A stretch of DNA of 34,996 nt, from contig DATKAN010000064.1 of the NCBI GenBank assembly GCA_035498035.1, forward strand, positions 1 to 34,996. The letters are read 5' to 3'. The position numbers and the translations under genes were made by a program. The stretch is from Nitrospiria bacterium. Lineage in GTDB: Bacteria > Nitrospirota > Nitrospiria > JACQBZ01. This document shows positions 3,562 to 31,436 of the stretch, in pieces. The stretch's first letter is position 1, and every line of letters begins with the position of its first letter. The notes under the pieces are model-generated. The model saw only the letters and a list, made by a program, of their open reading frames with translations, had not been told where the DNA came from and did not search any database.

Positions 3562-3792
3562 ATGAAAGAGCTGATCGAGTATATCGCGAAGTCTTTGGTG
3601 GACAAGCCGGAGTCGGTGTCGGTGAGAGAGACCGAAGGTGAAAAGACGACCATCATCGAGCTTCGGGTGGCGCAGGACGACCTGGGCAAGGTGATCGGAA
3701 AACAGGGGCGGACCGCGCGGTCGATGCGGACGATCTTGAATGCCGCGGGGACCAAATTGGGCAAACGGTGCGTTCTTGAGATCCTCGAGTGA
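3562..3792 (+). CDS. khpA: KH-domain RNA-binding protein KhpA
   Basis: A 76-residue single type-II KH domain. The GxxG loop is visible in [18 protein letters not shown]. KhpA proteins bind RNA, in some bacteria with KhpB/Jag, and affect envelope growth and ribosomal RNA metabolism. ATG at 3562 follows GGAGG (3549-3553) by 8 bases and gives exactly the usual family length. A GTG at 3541 would add seven unconserved residues. It sits 125 bases after rpsP, and its 3' end appears to overlap the 5' end of rimM. Confidence 0.93.
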
Positions 3793-4318
3793 GGAGAGGG
3801 CGTCGCTTGACGACTGGGTTGTGATCGGGGAGATCACAAAACCCTTCGGTCTGAAGGGCGGATTGAAGATCCGGCCTCTGACGGAGGATCCGGGTCGCTT
3901 CCGACGGCTCGCGGGGGCCGTGCTGGAGGCCGTCGACGGAACCCGGCAGACCTGCACGATTGACGAGGTTCGCACCGACCGGGATTCGGTGGTCCTGTTC
4001 TGCCGCGAGATCGAAACGGTGGAACAGGTCGAGCGCTTTGTGGGAGGGACGGTGCGGATTCCGGGTTCCGAAGCGATACGGCTCCCCCAGGGTTCCTACT
4101 TCCAGCATGACCTGGTGGGCCTTCAGGTTTACCTGGAGGACGGCCGGTATCTCGGCGTGATCCGGGAGATCTGGCCGACCGGCGGCAACGATGTGTTGGT
4201 GGTACGGGACGGGGAACGGGAGCGGCTGATTCCGGCGATCAAGTCGATCGTGATCGCGGTCGACCTGACGGAAAAACGGATGGTCCTTCGCTGGATGGAA
4301 GGATTGCTTGATTTATGA
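3740..4318 (+). CDS. rimM: Ribosome maturation factor RimM
   Basis: RimM helps 30S head assembly by binding S19. The N-terminal barrel begins at [20 protein letters not shown], followed by a PRC-barrel half with [14 protein letters not shown] and [12 protein letters not shown]. The start is uncertain. ATG 3740 overlaps khpA by 53 bases, TTG 3776 overlaps by 17, and GTG 3821 would cut off part of the first conserved strand. None has a convincing ribosome-binding site. The stop overlaps the trmD start (ATGA), which suggests coupling. Function is secure; the N-terminal ~25 residues are not. Confidence 0.9.
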
Positions 4319-24579: not shown

Positions 24580-25830
24580 ATGTCTTTATTATCTCTCCCG
24601 CGGCGTCGTGCGGGGATTTTGTTCGTTTTTCTTTCGGGTCTCGGGTTCGTGATCGGATGGGCCCCGCCGGCATCGGCGGTCGGGAATCTGAAACTGGGTC
24701 CGCTTGAGCTTCATCCCTACTTTCAGGTTTCCGAATCCTACGACAGCAACGTTTGCCGGTCGGAAGATATGGTCTGTCTGAGTCCGGATGATCCTTCCAA
24801 AAGCAAGGACGCGAACGACTGGCTGACCCTCTTCACCCCCGGGCTTCAGGCGGCGCTCCCTTTCCAGAATTCCCGTTTCGAGGCGGAGTATCGTGGAGAC
24901 TGGGGCCGGTACAACGAGCTGAAGGTCTGGAACTACAGCGACAACCTGGCCAAGGGCAATCTGGCCCTCAACTTTGCCGGCGGCGTTTCGTTGCGAATAA
25001 AAGAAGAATGGACCAACGGCCATGACGCGCCCGGCTTTGCGCAGAGCCTTCAACTCGACCTCTACCATGAAAACACGGCCGGGGGGGGCATCGACTGGCA
25101 GGTCGGACCGAAACTGCGCGTGGCGGTGGATTATACGAACCTCATGCTGAACTACGCGGACGACGCCCGGAACGGGTTCCGGGACCGGACGGACAACACC
25201 GTCGGCGGAACGGTTTTTTACAAGATTCTGCCGAAAACCTCCGCGCTGCTGGAGTACGAGTACACCGACGTGAATTTTGTCGAGGGCGACGTCGCTACCA
25301 AGAGCGTGGACAACGCGACCCAGCGCGGTTATCTCGGTCTCACCTGGGACGTCACCGCGAAATCGAAGGGGACCGTGAAGGCCGGCTACGCCCGGAAGGA
25401 TTATCAGGAATCCGGCGTGGACAACTTTCAGGGGGGGATCGTATCGATCGGCCTGAGCCATGAAATGACGCAGCGCACCTCGCTGAAGTTCGACGCGGTG
25501 CGGGACGTTCAGGAGAGCTACGTCGCGGGCCAGCCTTACTACCTGACCTCCGGCGGGCGCCTCGAGCTGATCCACGCCGTTCATCCGAAGGTCACCTTTA
25601 AAATGAACGCGGGTTTCAGCCGGGACCAGTATCCCGACGATATGACCGTCGGGACGGAGACCCGCAAGCGGATCGACAACAGTTGGGACCTGGGCGGCCG
25701 CTTTGAATACCGGATCCAGCCCTGGCTGAACCTGGGGCTCGGATACGATTATTCCCAGCGTCGTTCGACCTTTAGCGATTTTGGATATGTGGACAATCTG
25801 TACACCTTCAGCGTCGGGACCTTGTTGTAG
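24580..25830 (+). CDS. Outer-membrane beta-barrel protein of an exopolysaccharide locus
   Basis: A 416-residue exported protein. The signal peptide (about 1-33) ends PPASA. The mature part consists of alternating amphipathic strands with aromatic girdles (e.g. LGLTWDVTAKSKGTVKAGYA, LGGRFEYRIQPWLNLGLGYD), ending with a short hydrophobic strand FSVGTLL. I infer a barrel of the BBP2/EpsL kind found in polysaccharide-export operons. Two Cys flank a short insert near residues 50-65 (NVCRSEDMVC). ATG 24580 follows AAAGGGGG. Its exact transport role is unknown. Confidence 0.82.
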   Translation: MSLLSLPRRRAGILFVFLSGLGFVIGWAPPASAVGNLKLGPLELHPYFQVSESYDSNVCRSEDMVCLSPDDPSKSKDANDWLTLFTPGLQAALPFQNSRFEAEYRGDWGRYNELKVWNYSDNLAKGNLALNFAGGVSLRIKEEWTNGHDAPGFAQSLQLDLYHENTAGGGIDWQVGPKLRVAVDYTNLMLNYADDARNGFRDRTDNTVGGTVFYKILPKTSALLEYEYTDVNFVEGDVATKSVDNATQRGYLGLTWDVTAKSKGTVKAGYARKDYQESGVDNFQGGIVSIGLSHEMTQRTSLKFDAVRDVQESYVAGQPYYLTSGGRLELIHAVHPKVTFKMNAGFSRDQYPDDMTVGTETRKRIDNSWDLGGRFEYRIQPWLNLGLGYDYSQRRSTFSDFGYVDNLYTFSVGTLL

Positions 25831-26608
25831 GAGCGTCCCCGGTTTTTTCGCGTCCGCGCTGAGACGATTCGCGGCCCTGCTGATCGGCGCAGGGCTTATT
25901 CTCTCCGGAACGGCGTGGTCCCAGGATTATGTCCTGGGTCCGCGCGACGTCCTCAACATCACCGTTTACGATCACAAGGACCTCGAAACCAAGGTCCGCG
26001 TCAGCGAAGACGGCAAGATCACCTTCCCGCTCCTGGGCGAGATCAAGGTTTCCGGCCTCACGGTCCAGCAGCTCGAGCGAAGGATCACGACCCGGCTGGC
26101 GAACGGCTACATCGTCCATCCCCACGTCGGCGTCTTCGTCGAGGAGTTCCGCGTCGTGGTCTACGTCACCGGCGAGGTGAGCAAGCCGGGTTCCTTTCCC
26201 TACGAAGAGGGGATGACCGTGATCAAGGCCCTCAGCCTCGCCGGCGGGCTGACCGAGAAGGCGGCCGAAGGGAAGATGACGGTCACCCGGAAGGGCCAGG
26301 GCCCGAACGAGACCGCGATTCTTGTCGGGATGCACGATCTCCTCCGGCCGGACGACGTCCTTCAGGTTCCGGAGAAGCGGTGGGTCTACGTGACCGGCGA
26401 GGTCAAGAAGCCGGGCTCGTATTTGTTCGACGAACAAATGACGATCCTGAAGGCGATCACGCTGGCCGGAGGGCTGACCGACAAGGCCGCCCCGGCCAAA
26501 ACGGAAATCATCCGGAAGAAGGAAGGAAAGGAAGACAAGATCCGCGTCAAGATGGAGGACCCGCTCCAGCCGGAGGACGTGGTGGTCGTCCCGGAAAGTT
26601 TCTTCTAA
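25781..26608 (+). CDS. Polysaccharide export protein with two SLBB domains (Wza-like)
   Basis: Periplasmic/outer-membrane export protein. A signal-like stretch RRFAALLIGAGLILSGTAWS is followed by the Poly_export domain (YVLGPRDVLNITVYDHKDLE). Two SLBB repeats follow, VYVTGEVSKPGSFPYEEGMT and VYVTGEVKKPGSYLFDEQMT, near residues 127 and 206 of the long form. The only ATG starts (25781, 25787) lie inside the upstream gene and put about 26 odd residues before the signal peptide. No ATG, GTG or TTG occurs at the natural start; a CTG (25859) does. It would form the export channel for the polymer made by the downstream genes. Function confident, start not. Confidence 0.87.
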   Translation: MDMWTICTPSASGPCCRSVPGFFASALRRFAALLIGAGLILSGTAWSQDYVLGPRDVLNITVYDHKDLETKVRVSEDGKITFPLLGEIKVSGLTVQQLERRITTRLANGYIVHPHVGVFVEEFRVVVYVTGEVSKPGSFPYEEGMTVIKALSLAGGLTEKAAEGKMTVTRKGQGPNETAILVGMHDLLRPDDVLQVPEKRWVYVTGEVKKPGSYLFDEQMTILKAITLAGGLTDKAAPAKTEIIRKKEGKEDKIRVKMEDPLQPEDVVVVPESFF

Positions 26609-26707
26609 AGGAGTAAGGAGCGAGGAGTGAAGGGTAAGGGGAAAAAATGAATATTTGGAAGTGTGGAGCGTCTTCATTCTCCTTACTCCTAACTCCTCAC
26701 TCCTAAC
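26609..26707. repeat. Inverted pair of heptamer arrays, five units facing five
   Basis: Five units AGGAGTA, AGGAGCG, AGGAGTG, AAGGGTA, AGGGGAA (26609-26643) face TTCATTC, TCCTTAC, TCCTAAC, TCCTCAC, TCCTAAC (26673-26707). The arms are approximate reverse complements separated by 29 bases. They fill the gap between the export gene and wzc. A folded transcript would have a long imperfect hairpin in mid-operon. Confidence 0.85.
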
Positions 26708-26728
26708 TGGTTACGCATTGGAGTCATT

Positions 26729-28741
26729 ATGCAAACCGAACCCGAAATCCATCTGCGCGATTACCTCCGCGTCCTCCAGAAACGGCGGTGGACCGCGATC
26801 ACCTTTTTCGTGATCCTGGTCACCGTCGTGGCGGTGGTCACCTTCACGATTCAGCCCGTCTATCGCTCCGCCGTTCAGATCCTGATCGAACGGGAGAATC
26901 CCAACGTGGTTTCGATCCAGGAGGTCCTGGCGGTCGACGCCACCGCGACTGACTACTACCAGACCCAGTACGAGATCCTGAAGAGCGAGACCCTCGCCCG
27001 GCGGGTGATCGACCGGCTGAAGCTGGGCCAGAACCCCGATTTTCAGAACCCATCCGCCCGCTCGGAGGATTCGACGAGTCCGGATCCCGAGGAGAATTCC
27101 CGGCGGTGGTTGAAGACATTCCTGTCCCGGTTGACGGTGAGCCCCATCCGCAACAGCCGTCTCGTGAAGGTCGAGTTTGATTCGCACGATCCCGCGCTCG
27201 CCGCGCTCGTGGCCAACACCCTGGCCGATGAATACATCAATTACAACAGGGAGCTGAAGATCAAGGCGGCCCAGGAGGCCAACACCTGGCTCCGAAAGCG
27301 CGTGGACGAGATGCAGGGGAAGGTGCAGCAGTCGGAGGAGGCCTTCGAGAAATACAAGGAGAGCATCCCGGCCCAGATCACGGCCCAGGTCGAGTCCAAG
27401 GCCGAGTCTCGCGCCGCGATGAAGGAGATGGAGTCCCGCCCGGAGGTGGTCAACAACGCGTTCATTCAAGAGCTGCGGACGGAGGAGATCCGCCTGACGG
27501 CGAAGCAGTCGGAGCTGTCGAAAAAATACGGCCCGAAGCATCCCCAGATGATCCAGGTCGCCTCGGAGCTCGCGACGCTCCGCAACAAGCTGGAGCGGGA
27601 GATCAAGCGTCTGGTGGGCGCGGTGAAGATCGAGGAGTCCCCGCAGTACCTGCTCTTGAAGCGCGAGGTGGACGCCAACCGCCAGTTGTTCGAGGTCCTG
27701 CTCAAGCGGCTGAAGGAGACGGCCCTGACGGAGAACATCCCCAGGGGAAATATTCAGGTGATGGATGCGGCCCAGCCGTCCACGGTCCCGATCAAGCCGA
27801 AAAAAACCATGAACATGATCCTGGCCGTCGTCCTCGGCCTGGTCCTGGGCTCCGGCCTCTCGTTTTTCTTCGAGTACCTCGACAACACGATCAAGAGCCC
27901 CGAGGACATCGAGCGCGTGATCGCCGCGCCGCTGCTGGGGATCGTGCCCTCGGCCGGACGGAGGAAGAAATCGGCCGGCCCGTCCGGGAGGCCGTCTCAT
28001 CCGATCGAAACCGTTCTGTCGGCCGAGCCCAAGTCCTCCTACGCCGAGGCCTACCGGACGATCCGGACCGGCGTCCTGCTGTCCTCGGCCGAGCACCCGC
28101 CGAGGGTGGTCCTGGTCACCAGTCCCGGACCGGTCGAGGGCAAGACCACGACCGCCGCGAACCTCGCGATCGCGATGGCCCAGGCCGGGAGCGCGACCCT
28201 CCTGATCGACGCCGATCTGCGCCGGCCGAGGATCCATCAGCTCTTTGAGCCGTCGAACGGGGGCGGCCGTTCCGAAGGGGATCGGGACGTGAACGTCAAA
28301 GGCCTGGGGCCGGTCCTGGTGGGCGAGGCCACGGCCGAGGCCGCGATCCGGCAGACTCCGATCCCGCTGCTCTGCATCCTTCCCTCCGGGCCCGTCCCGC
28401 CGAACCCGGCCGAGCTGCTGGGCTCGAACCGGATGCGGGACCTGATCAAGGAGGTGGGCCGGAAGTTCGACCGGATCATCATCGATTCCCCGCCGCTGGT
28501 CCCCGTGACGGACGCCACGCTGCTTTCGACCCTGTGCGACGGCGTGGTGCTGGTGGTGAAGGAATCCCGGACCACGAAGCTTCTGGCGACGGAGGCCCGG
28601 AAGCGTCTGGCCGACGCCAAGGCGAGGCTTCTGGGCGTCGTGTTCAACGACGTGGACCTGAAAAAGGACACCTACCGCTACTATCCCTATCAATCGTATT
28701 ACGGGAAAGAAGATAAAAAGAAAGTAAGGAGTAAGAGGTAA
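26729..28741 (+). CDS. Wzc-like chain-length determinant with C-terminal tyrosine autokinase
   Basis: A 670-residue inner-membrane protein. The Wzz domain has a first helix (about 22-42) and an FLSRLTVSPIRNSRLVKVEF segment. A long coiled coil (about 190-300) follows. The second helix is near 360-385, after the Pro-rich PSTVPIKPKK. The cytoplasmic BY-kinase has Walker A PGPVEGKTTT (K472), Walker A' LLIDADLRRPR and Walker B RIIIDSPPL. The C-terminus carries a Tyr cluster (YRYYPYQSYYG), the expected autophosphorylation site. It controls polymer length and export with the SLBB protein. The last six codons and the stop are formed by a heptamer repeat array. Confidence 0.93.
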   Translation: MQTEPEIHLRDYLRVLQKRRWTAITFFVILVTVVAVVTFTIQPVYRSAVQILIERENPNVVSIQEVLAVDATATDYYQTQYEILKSETLARRVIDRLKLGQNPDFQNPSARSEDSTSPDPEENSRRWLKTFLSRLTVSPIRNSRLVKVEFDSHDPALAALVANTLADEYINYNRELKIKAAQEANTWLRKRVDEMQGKVQQSEEAFEKYKESIPAQITAQVESKAESRAAMKEMESRPEVVNNAFIQELRTEEIRLTAKQSELSKKYGPKHPQMIQVASELATLRNKLEREIKRLVGAVKIEESPQYLLLKREVDANRQLFEVLLKRLKETALTENIPRGNIQVMDAAQPSTVPIKPKKTMNMILAVVLGLVLGSGLSFFFEYLDNTIKSPEDIERVIAAPLLGIVPSAGRRKKSAGPSGRPSHPIETVLSAEPKSSYAEAYRTIRTGVLLSSAEHPPRVVLVTSPGPVEGKTTTAANLAIAMAQAGSATLLIDADLRRPRIHQLFEPSNGGGRSEGDRDVNVKGLGPVLVGEATAEAAIRQTPIPLLCILPSGPVPPNPAELLGSNRMRDLIKEVGRKFDRIIIDSPPLVPVTDATLLSTLCDGVVLVVKESRTTKLLATEARKRLADAKARLLGVVFNDVDLKKDTYRYYPYQSYYGKEDKKKVRSKR

Positions 28742-28750
28742 GGAGTTATG
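28723..28750 (+). repeat. Heptamer array spanning the wzc stop and the next ribosome-binding site
   Basis: Units AGTAAGG, AGTAAGA, GGTAAGG, AGTTATG (28723-28750). The array encodes the end of the Wzc-like protein, supplies its TAA stop (28739-28741), the GGAG ribosome-binding site and the ATG of the phosphatase gene. No facing reverse array follows here. Confidence 0.75.
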
Positions 28751-29467
28751 ATCGACCTCCATTGCCACATCCTGCCCGGCCTCGACGACGGGCCCCGGAC
28801 GAGGGACGAGGCGCTGGCGATGGCCCGCATGGCGGCGGCGGACGGGATCGACACACTCGTGGCCTCGTCCCACATCACGCCGGGCGTTTACGATAACACG
28901 CCGGAGGGGATCGTCGCGGCCGCGGAGGCCTTCGGGGCCCGCCTCCGGCGGGAGGGGATTCCGCTCCGGATCATTCCGGGCGCGGATGTCCGGATGACGC
29001 CGGAGCTGCTGGACGGGGACGGCCGCCGTCTTTGCATCAACCGGGACACGCCGTATTTCCTGTTCGAGTTCCCGCACGACCTCGTCCCGCCCGGCAGCGA
29101 AGGGCTGGTGGAGGCCCTTCTCGGGAAGGGGTTGGTTCCCGTGATCACCCATCCGGAGCGCAACATGGAGTTCCAGCGACGGCCGGAAAAACTGGAGCCC
29201 TTTGTCAGGCTGGGTTGTCTGGTCCAGATCACCGCGATGAGCCTCACCGGCGGGTTCGGGCCGCGGGCGCAGTCCGTCGCGGAGCGGTTTATGAGGGAGG
29301 GCCGGGCGCATCTGATCGCGACCGACGCCCACGACACCGTGAAGCGGCCCCCGGTCCTTTCGCGCGCGCTCGAACGGGCCGAGGCCTTGGTGGGCGTCGA
29401 GGCCGCGCGGGCGATGGTTTTTGAGACCCCGGAGAAAATTGTAAGGGGAGAGGAAGTGAGGAGTTAA
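28748..29467 (+). CDS. CpsB/CapC-type PHP-family tyrosine phosphatase
   Basis: A 239-residue PHP-domain metalloenzyme that dephosphorylates BY-kinases such as the Wzc-like protein just upstream. Metal ligands are visible at H5 and H7 (MIDLHCHILPGLDDG), H42, D80, H135 (VITHPERNMEF) and D193/H195 (LIATDAHD). Typical length, cytoplasmic. Kinase and phosphatase adjacent in one operon fit cyclic phosphorylation during polymer assembly. Its ribosome-binding site lies inside a heptamer array, and its last codons and stop fall in the next one. Confidence 0.93.
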   Translation: MIDLHCHILPGLDDGPRTRDEALAMARMAAADGIDTLVASSHITPGVYDNTPEGIVAAAEAFGARLRREGIPLRIIPGADVRMTPELLDGDGRRLCINRDTPYFLFEFPHDLVPPGSEGLVEALLGKGLVPVITHPERNMEFQRRPEKLEPFVRLGCLVQITAMSLTGGFGPRAQSVAERFMREGRAHLIATDAHDTVKRPPVLSRALERAEALVGVEAARAMVFETPEKIVRGEEVRS

Positions 29468-29559
29468 GACGCAAGGAGTGAGTAGTAAGGAATGAGGGGG
29501 AAAGACGGCATTGCGCATACGCTCTCCTAACTCCTTACTCTTTACTCCTAACTTCTCCC
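29454..29559. repeat. Inverted heptamer arrays, seven units facing five
   Basis: Seven degenerate 7-bp units (29454-29502; e.g. AAGTGAG, GAGTTAA, GGAGTGA, GTAGTAA, GGAATGA) face five units TCCTAAC, TCCTTAC, TCTTTAC, TCCTAAC, TTCTCCC (29525-29559). The left array contains the stop codon of the phosphatase gene. The right one ends 15 bases before the next ATG. Confidence 0.82.
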
Positions 29560-29573
29560 AAGCGAATATCCCC

Positions 29574-31436
29574 ATGTTACTCGTCATCCAAACAGGCCTG
29601 ATCGCACTCCTCCTCTTCGCCCCGCTGGCCTTCGGCTCGGTCGAGGTCTGGGCCCGGTCGGTTCTGGAGTGGGGCGTCTTCGGACTGGCCGGGCTGTGGC
29701 TGATCCGTTTCGGCTTCGCCCGGGAAGCGCCGCCCAAACTCCCGGGGCCGGTCTGGCTCATGCTCTCGGTCTTCGCCGGCTACGTCCTCATCCGGCAGGC
29801 CGCCGCGACCTCGCTTTATCCGCGCGGCACGCGCGACGCGCTGGCCCTCGCGACCGCCTACGCGTTGCTCTTCGCGCTCGTCGTCTCGACCGTCCGGACC
29901 GAGGCCGAGATCCGCCGGCTCACCCTGTCCCTCATCGTGATCGGCTTCGGCGTCGCCCTGTTCGCCATTCTCCAGCAGTATACCTGGAACGGAAAGATCT
30001 ACGGACTCCGGCCCGTGACGGCGGGCGGGTCGCCCACCGGCCCCTTCGTCAACCGGAACCATTTCGCGGGCTACATGGAGATGCTGATCCCGGTGGCGAT
30101 CGGGTACACGGCGGCCTCGTTCGCGGAGGCGCCGGCGCGGGGCGGCACGGCCTGGCGGCGCTTCGTCGACCGGCTCACCTCCGAGCGGGCCCATCAGTTT
30201 GCGCTGCTGCTGTTCATGACGCTGGTGATGTCGGTCTCCCTCGTCCTGACCCTGTCCCGCGCCGGGATCGTGAGCTTCGTGACGGCCCTGGCCCTGATCG
30301 GGGCGGTCTTCGTGTGGGGCCGGACCACGAAGCGCCGGGTCCTGTTGCCGGGCGCGCTGGCCGCGCTGGTCCTGATCTCCCTCGCCTGGTTCGGGCTGGG
30401 GCCGGTGATCGACCGGGTCAACACGCTGCTCCATCTTCCCGGGGATCCGTCGATGCGGGGGCGGATCGCGGTCTGGAAGGACGCGACAAGGATCATGGCC
30501 GACTATCCGATCATGGGATCGGGCCCCGGAACCTTCGGGGCGGTCTACCCGGCCTACAAGACGGTTCCCGATCCGGTCTTCTACGAGCACGCGCACAACG
30601 ACTACGTCCAGTGGATGGCCGAGACGGGGATCGTCGGATTCGGCCTGGGCGCCGGAGCGCTCGGGATCCTGTTCGGCTTCATTCTCGCCGGCGGGCGGGC
30701 GCGGCGCAATCCCCGGGCAAAGGTACTGCTCCTGGGTGTCGTGACCGGCCTTGCGGCGATCCTGATCCACGGCCTGAACGATTTTAATTTTCATATTCCG
30801 GCCAACGCCTTCCTGTTCACGGTCCTGACGGGGATGGCCTGGAACCTCGCGCGGCCGGATCGATCGGACGCGCCGGACAGGCCGGCGGCCGGCCCCTGGC
30901 GTCCGGCGGCCGCCGTCGCGGGCCTGGCCGTCGTCGTGTGGCTGCTGTATCAGACCACGTCCGCGTTTGCGGCCGACCGGTATTACCGCTGCGGGCTGGA
31001 GCTTGAAAAGGCGGGAAAGCTCGATCGGGCCGAGGAGGAATACCGCCGTGCAATCGGTTGGGACCCGGCCCATCCGCAATACCATATGGCATTGGGCGGG
31101 CTGGACGAACGACGCTACAAACAGGGGGACGCGACGGCGCTGGCCCCGGCACGGTCCGAGATGGAACGGGCCGCCGCCCTGGCCCCGACGCTGGCCGCGC
31201 CGCATCTCGATCTGGGCTGGATCCACGCGCAGCTCGGGGAGACCTCCGAGGCGACGGAGGAGTTCGGCCGCGTACTGAAGCTGGACCCGACGAACCCCCT
31301 CTATCAGCATTACGTCGGCCTTTGGTTCGCCGCGACCGGACAGACCGACCGCGCCCTTTCGCTCGCGCAACGGCTTCGGGAGAACCGGCAGGATAAGTTG
31401 GCGGCGGAGATCGAGGAGCGGTTGAAGAAGACGTAA
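29574..31436 (+). CDS. O-antigen ligase/polymerase-type membrane protein with TPR tail
   Basis: A 620-residue protein. Ten or more membrane helices cover about residues 1-455, with the Wzy_C/O-antigen-ligase loop containing GPGTFGAVYPAYK and EHAHNDYVQWMAETG. After a last helix (about 450-465) three TPR-like repeats follow (e.g. AGKLDRAEEEYRRAIGWDP). Proteins of this form polymerise repeat units or ligate polysaccharide at the periplasmic face. ATG 29574 begins the first helix; an upstream TTG frame starts inside the heptamer region and is rejected. The ribosome-binding site is weak. The stop overlaps the next start by one base. Confidence 0.87.
   Translation: MLLVIQTGLIALLLFAPLAFGSVEVWARSVLEWGVFGLAGLWLIRFGFAREAPPKLPGPVWLMLSVFAGYVLIRQAAATSLYPRGTRDALALATAYALLFALVVSTVRTEAEIRRLTLSLIVIGFGVALFAILQQYTWNGKIYGLRPVTAGGSPTGPFVNRNHFAGYMEMLIPVAIGYTAASFAEAPARGGTAWRRFVDRLTSERAHQFALLLFMTLVMSVSLVLTLSRAGIVSFVTALALIGAVFVWGRTTKRRVLLPGALAALVLISLAWFGLGPVIDRVNTLLHLPGDPSMRGRIAVWKDATRIMADYPIMGSGPGTFGAVYPAYKTVPDPVFYEHAHNDYVQWMAETGIVGFGLGAGALGILFGFILAGGRARRNPRAKVLLLGVVTGLAAILIHGLNDFNFHIPANAFLFTVLTGMAWNLARPDRSDAPDRPAAGPWRPAAAVAGLAVVVWLLYQTTSAFAADRYYRCGLELEKAGKLDRAEEEYRRAIGWDPAHPQYHMALGGLDERRYKQGDATALAPARSEMERAAALAPTLAAPHLDLGWIHAQLGETSEATEEFGRVLKLDPTNPLYQHYVGLWFAATGQTDRALSLAQRLRENRQDKLAAEIEERLKKT

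Follow-up and report, generated by a model that had tools for sequence, protein, structure and literature searches.

Short arrays of degenerate heptamers, several of them facing an inverted partner, lie between the genes of an exopolysaccharide operon and at other gene ends of the same Nitrospiria genome. Here we read these arrays as REP/MITE-like dispersed palindromes. They probably form a family of short palindromes that has spread by copying and is tolerated at gene ends, the copies within the operon most likely being neutral or selfish passengers and not regulators. We infer spread by copying from compact versus occupied states of the same junctions, from copies inside genes, from the polarity of the units within an array and from spacer sequence shared between sites. 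The window, by which we mean the whole stretch of 34,996 nucleotides that was analysed, is contig C64 of a 2.67-Mb draft genome (G000). Its operon has the gene order wza-wzc-cpsB-wzy, each name to be read as "-like", and its CpsB is 74-85 % identical to those of the nearest named relatives, which are Nitrospirota genomes from groundwater.

The first-pass annotation of the window had described heptamer arrays at three successive junctions of this operon, and they are indeed present: arrays face each other at wza/wzc and cpsB/wzy (junctions 1 and 3) and a single array occupies wzc/cpsB (junction 2; Table 1). The arrays are interwoven with the ends of the genes. At junction 2 the array contains the wzc stop codon as well as the AAGGAG that stands right before the cpsB ATG, and at junction 3 the first units of the purine arm encode the C-terminus of CpsB, VRGEEVRS, together with its stop codon. 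A motif that is common to arrays at other junctions, GCRTACGCTCTCC, overlaps the spacer of junction 3 at 29513-29528. A search of Rfam gave no match at the arrays. Gene boundaries are those of our own simple gene caller and all genomes used are drafts.

Table 1. Genes and array features of the exopolysaccharide operon, in positions of the window
Feature	Position	Strand	Remark
wza-like polysaccharide export gene (Poly_export, SLBB)	25781..26608	+	stop TAA 26606-26608
Junction 1 (wza/wzc), left purine arm, 5 heptamers	26609..26643	+	directly 3' of wza stop TAA
Junction 1, spacer, about 33 bp	26644..26676	.	
Junction 1, right pyrimidine arm, about 5-6 heptamers	26677..26718	-	minus-strand reading
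wzc-like chain length determinant with kinase domain (Wzz, GNVR, AAA_31)	26729..28741	+	stop 28739-28741
Junction 2 (wzc/cpsB), single purine array	about 28723..28747	+	
cpsB/capC-like phosphatase gene	28748..29467	+	ATG 28748; stop 29465-29467
Junction 3 (cpsB/wzy), left purine arm, interrupted	about 29446..29501	+	clear at 29467-29501
Junction 3, spacer, about 20 bp	29502..29521	.	
Junction 3, right pyrimidine arm, 5 heptamers	29522..29556	-	minus-strand reading
wzy/O-antigen-ligase-like gene with TPR repeats	29574..31436	+	

Arrays of this kind are far more frequent than chance provides. The statistics were computed on 830 kb of the same genome, and since the contigs of this sample were picked for carrying arrays, their density is biased and the sample establishes an excess, not a genome-wide density. 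Within it, a score of 13 or more against the heptamer model is reached by 74 21-mers, compared to 1-4 in three first-order Markov resamplings. A scan for four-unit periodicity that presupposes no unit identified period 7 in 12 of 458 intergenic regions and in none of the regions in each of five dinucleotide shuffles. No region shows any of the periods 5-6 and 9-15, and two show period 8. The excess that a period-7 scan of intergenic DNA against shuffles was meant to reveal is therefore present, and together with the Markov resamplings and the polarity of the units it supports the earlier view of an evolving repeat, as opposed to random purine-rich DNA.

A pattern search of the whole genome returned about 17 array sites, 7 of them facing. 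These sites are found beside eno, nuo, hom, ispG/proS-like and tRNA genes too; the arrays are not specific to exopolysaccharide genes. Beyond this genome, an exact 21-base pattern matched 83 of 396 Nitrospirota genomes; of 50 genomes that were reached via other loci 5 have it, at least two of these five being Nitrospirota. For the searches with AGGAGTN, a control pattern read backwards was set aside, as the array itself fits it when the register is shifted. In some other Nitrospirota families this control pattern is commoner than the query, which points to yet another heptamer family.

The sites of G000 are also clustered locally, with 5 close neighbours where 0.25 are expected (0 of 20,000 simulations) and, after removal of two contigs with homologous flanks, 3 where 0.15 are expected (6 of 20,000). 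Four array sites (C23:42830, C23:43701, C42:5032 and C42:6269) have homologous left flanks (CGGCCCGCGCCGGAGGAATG...), and to judge from these flanks the array may travel as part of a larger duplicated segment or cassette. Given both the clustering and the homologous flanks, some of the spread may have come about by segmental duplication or by copying within a locality.

The unit has the consensus AGGVGTR; T is rare at position 4, which is otherwise A, C or G, and about 80 % of units have A or G at position 7. Arrays are mostly 4-5 units long, with a range of 3-7 in the family. Within an array the units are not interchangeable. In the family, 32 of the 57 innermost units have A at position 6, compared to 1 of the 199 others, and C stands at position 4 in 30 of the 57 outermost units, so that the inner unit reads AGGAGA and the outer one often contains CGT. 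This polarity is partly produced by the way in which array ends are detected, an effect that does not explain how strongly A is preferred to C or G. Orientation is equally ordered: over all loci, relatives included, 26 facing pairs point inward and none outward, an outcome with a probability of about 3e-8 if orientation were free. Two loci (L203 and L206) have facing arms of unlike units, GTGAGGC on one side and GTGAAAC-type on the other.

Similarity between sites extends beyond the heptamers. A 16-base spacer motif, GCGTATACGCTCTCC, is common to junction 3 of the window, to a site on contig C19 of the same genome and to sites in the relatives G001 and G004. The loop motif CGTAT/ATACG is found in 5 of 26 loops, with about 1 expected; as it was picked after the data had been seen, it is supportive only. 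Comparison of the array ends of the family revealed no strong conserved terminal motif outside the arrays. A complete element would be pictured as an imperfect palindrome of about 30-115 bp, composed of 4-5 purine-rich heptamers, a spacer and the same heptamers inverted.

These properties bear on a process that requires no movement at all, namely that arrays grow in place by replication slippage from a stop codon and a Shine-Dalgarno sequence (e.g. TAAGGAG), with the inverted arm made by template switching. The unit does resemble a stop codon fused to a ribosome-binding site, both of which junction 2 supplies; arrays abut stop codons at 11 of 17 sites; the numbers of units and arms differ between orthologs; and polymerase slippage has been proposed to be favoured by 7-nt repeats (discussed in PMC4679880). 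However, the compact junctions beside tRNA-Pro and hom have no seed unit, arrays lie inside coding genes, array length is narrow and the units are polar, and spacer sequence beyond the heptamer is common to two sites of G000 and to sites in two relatives. In-place slippage explains changes in unit number, not seedless or in-gene copies, and as the origin of the arrays we consider it rather improbable.

The dispersed palindromes that we favour can be followed at orthologous junctions in up to six relatives (G001 to G006). Related arrays are present there, so that this check, proposed in the first-pass annotation, also came out in favour of its observation, and turnover is fast. The same junction may hold facing arrays, a single array or a GTAGGGGC palindrome, or may be compact and empty. 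Facing arrays occupy the gatB-like/eno junction in G000 and G001; the same junction is short in G003 and compact in G002, G004, G005 and G006. At the nuo junction, about 100 bp with a facing array in G000 correspond to a GTAGGGGC-type palindrome in G006 and to a compact state in G002 and G003, where stop and start codons are a few bases apart. The hom junction has an array in G000, G001 and G005, a palindrome in G002, G003 and G004, and is compact in G006. Beside tRNA-Pro, facing arrays are present in G000, G001 and G004, and the junction is compact in G003 and G005. A junction on contig C9 of G000 is occupied in four species, across genera, from which it follows that some copies are old; they could have been kept for a function or could simply have persisted.

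The operon of the window varies in the same manner. Facing arrays occupy all three junctions in G001. In G005, junction 1 holds a palindrome, junction 2 has two units and junction 3 is empty. Of the junctions of G004, the second carries a double facing array and the first a different repeat; in G002, palindromes lie at the first, and no clear array is seen at the third. The repeat of G004 at wza/wzc (locus L033, about 3785-3880) is itself a facing one, with a unit of about 10 bp (AGAGATTGRT) in the place where the window has heptamers.

The first of three roles suggested earlier for the arrays was that of mid-operon hairpins setting stoichiometry: functional mRNA stem-loops that would protect, process or attenuate the message and so set the Wza/Wzc/CpsB/Wzy ratio. 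On paper they fold, both facing junctions of the window doing so better than shuffles (z -4.8 and -3.3), they lie between co-directional genes, and G001 has facing arrays at all three junctions. We nevertheless consider this role unlikely. Relatives lack facing arrays at the same junctions (G005 at all three, G002 with other repeats or none at junctions 1 and 3), so the hairpin is not needed for this operon. Compensatory change between the arms is not significant, as 73 of 1000 swaps of arms pair as well at the variable positions and 40 of 1000 are as good for identity. The same elements also occur beside unrelated genes and inside proteins, and in the window sequence no T tract typical of an intrinsic terminator follows the right arms, though a hairpin is present.

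For the second suggested role, recombination sites that shuffle glycan genes, no evidence was found. Sites do cluster in glycan gene regions of G000, G001 and G002; yet the order wza-wzc-cpsB-wzy is the same in relatives with or without arrays, the units are short and degenerate, and many sites lie outside glycan clusters. We give this role hardly any credence. The third, a selfish short repeat, fits best of the three. As to how the arrays may spread, the comparison gave no clear target-site duplication and no transposase that could be tied to them. The eno junction allows different 3-bp readings of such a duplication, and the compact orthologous junctions are too diverged.

A transposase-driven version of dispersal would hold that the arrays are REP sequences and that a REP-associated (Y1) tyrosine transposase moves them. 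Like REPs the arrays are palindromic, dispersed and near gene ends, often beside GTAGGGGC hairpins that resemble GTAG-tagged REPs. Against this, the array ends have neither a GTAG nor a CGTC tag, and the arrays lack the single GC-rich stem of 20-40 bp that REP/RAYT systems have. A link to Y1/RAYT genes was rejected on their distribution, with arrays and no Y1 gene in G005 and a Y1 gene and no arrays in G006, and neither of the two Y1 genes of G000 has arrays beside it. We regard movement by Y1 as very improbable. The two Y1 genes (C55:34071 and 37018) are near-identical, have inverted flanks of their own (CAGGTCTTGAATTATCAGTTTT) and are placed around an Rhs-like repeat region. The GTAGGGGC...GCCC palindromes, with their look of GTAG-tagged REPs, are seen at the same junctions as the arrays and often directly beside them: on contigs C45 and C28 of G002, at junctions in G003, G004 and G006, and in G000 near C23:43728, C42:6332 and C58:44994.

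The tolerance of dispersed palindromes at gene ends may be connected with how their two strands are read. The family has 51 arrays of at least four units. In 35 of them stop codons close every frame of the purine strand, compared to 25 % when the two variable positions are randomised, and in 31 every frame of the pyrimidine strand is open, compared to 9 %; these counts are those of the family set only, a second set having been gathered partly with a pattern that demands TRA. By our own reading of the 17 sites, the array contains or touches the upstream stop codon at 11. Array-encoded protein ends result, such as the C-terminal KKKVRSKR of Wzc in the window. In translation, pyrimidine arms give repeats of a hydrophobic heptapeptide (LLTPYSL) and make up apparent cores of signal peptides, as in LLLTPYSLLLTP; putative cores of this kind are MNMMGSLIILFLLLTPYSLLLTPASLGAQ in G000 and MKYLFFLLTPYALLLTVLAGCG in G001. 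The frame property could also follow from a purine bias at position 7 that has another cause, and stop codons do not explain why position 4 avoids T.

Some copies lie inside conserved open reading frames, where they keep the frame. A GH57 4-alpha-glucanotransferase of another Nitrospirota genome has 35 residues, encoded by both arms, where the solved structure 1k1w has 8. Methionyl-tRNA synthetase has the array-encoded SRLTPHA in a loop that is shorter in relatives, and a carbamoyltransferase of G000 contains the array-encoded LGVRSEE. At the same spot the ortholog of this carbamoyltransferase in G002 has a facing pair of another heptamer, TTGAGGY, which occurs in three places within about 5 kb of that genome; the architecture is thus kept with a different unit. 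On contig C67 of G002, in a glycan gene region, we observed a second facing heptamer family, TTGAGGY/TTGGAGG (loci L301, L303 and L305), one copy of which (L305) appears to be in frame inside a sugar transferase gene. An oxidoreductase fusion on the minus strand of L197 (529-2715) seems to hold two array-encoded inserts, SPLTPHASPLT and SSRLTPRASP.

We propose that elements would copy into new places and be kept where harm is small. At a gene end the purine arm would stop the upstream frame at once and the pyrimidine arm would let a downstream reading frame pass, and for this reason the element would be tolerated there; since it is palindromic, the effect would be the same on both strands. Later, arms would be lost and units altered, and some arms would be absorbed into C-termini, signal peptides and surface loops. 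It is possible, if doubtful, that the reading frame has itself shaped these mobile palindromes, with a stop per heptamer on one strand and none on the other, such that genes entering the element end, in all frames and on both strands, and genes leaving it start or are read through. If so, a frame-shaped element could enter any gene junction at small cost, and it would supply ready-made C-termini and signal peptides.

The arrays illustrate one way of remaking signal peptides and gene ends, and they advise caution: such hairpins are not to be taken as regulators of the operon in which they are seen. The stop-on-one-strand, open-on-the-other property of the unit predicts where copies can survive. 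Combined with compact and occupied states in close relatives and with copies in proteins, it makes the origin of the arrays testable with strain-level genomes.

Heptameric repeats have been reported to be over-represented in many bacterial genomes. Rickettsia palindromic elements are, in likeness to the present arrays, palindromic inserts in frame inside protein genes; they are longer, of unrelated sequence and not heptamer arrays. GTAG-tagged REPs (Rocco et al. 2013, PMC3733652) are also short dispersed palindromes near gene ends, some inside genes, and often supply the stop codon of a flanking gene; unlike the present arrays they are single stems of 20-40 bp with a GTAG tag, a transposase link and no heptamers. 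The TAACTGA repeats of Beggiatoaceae and cyanobacteria (MacGregor 2015, PMC4679880) share stops in all frames of one strand and a mostly intergenic position, and some overlap the upstream stop codon, but they are almost only direct, near start codons and not palindromic.

Whether the facing arrangement is described elsewhere had been left undecided in the first-pass annotation; it is, in Xanthomonas (PMC4692102) and in a similar form in Geobacter (PMC2700814). Class 3 of Geobacter metallireducens (Aklujkar et al. 2009, PMC2700814), like classes 1-2, is multicopy and is drawn as pairs on opposite strands. It has five tandem heptanucleotides of consensus MTYCTGA, known from only 16 aligned sequences, and the paired repeats of this species have been proposed as binding sites of a global regulator. 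The GGGAATC heptameric repeats of Xanthomonas (Rehm et al. 2015, PMC4692102) number 70-75 inward-facing pairs per genome, and sister species usually have them in the same gene context at different lengths. With these the present arrays share the degenerate heptamers, mostly four units per array, the intergenic position near an upstream stop codon, the excess of tandem heptamers and the many inward pairs on opposite strands. The Xanthomonas unit forms G-quadruplexes and is repeated up to 26 times; AGGVGTR, by contrast, has GG runs only and no such G-quadruplex potential, carries a stop codon, is repeated 3-7 times and shows higher turnover between species. The facing heptamer arrangement is thus already known; new in the present arrays are the unit and its frame property, the compact versus occupied junctions and the copies inside proteins.
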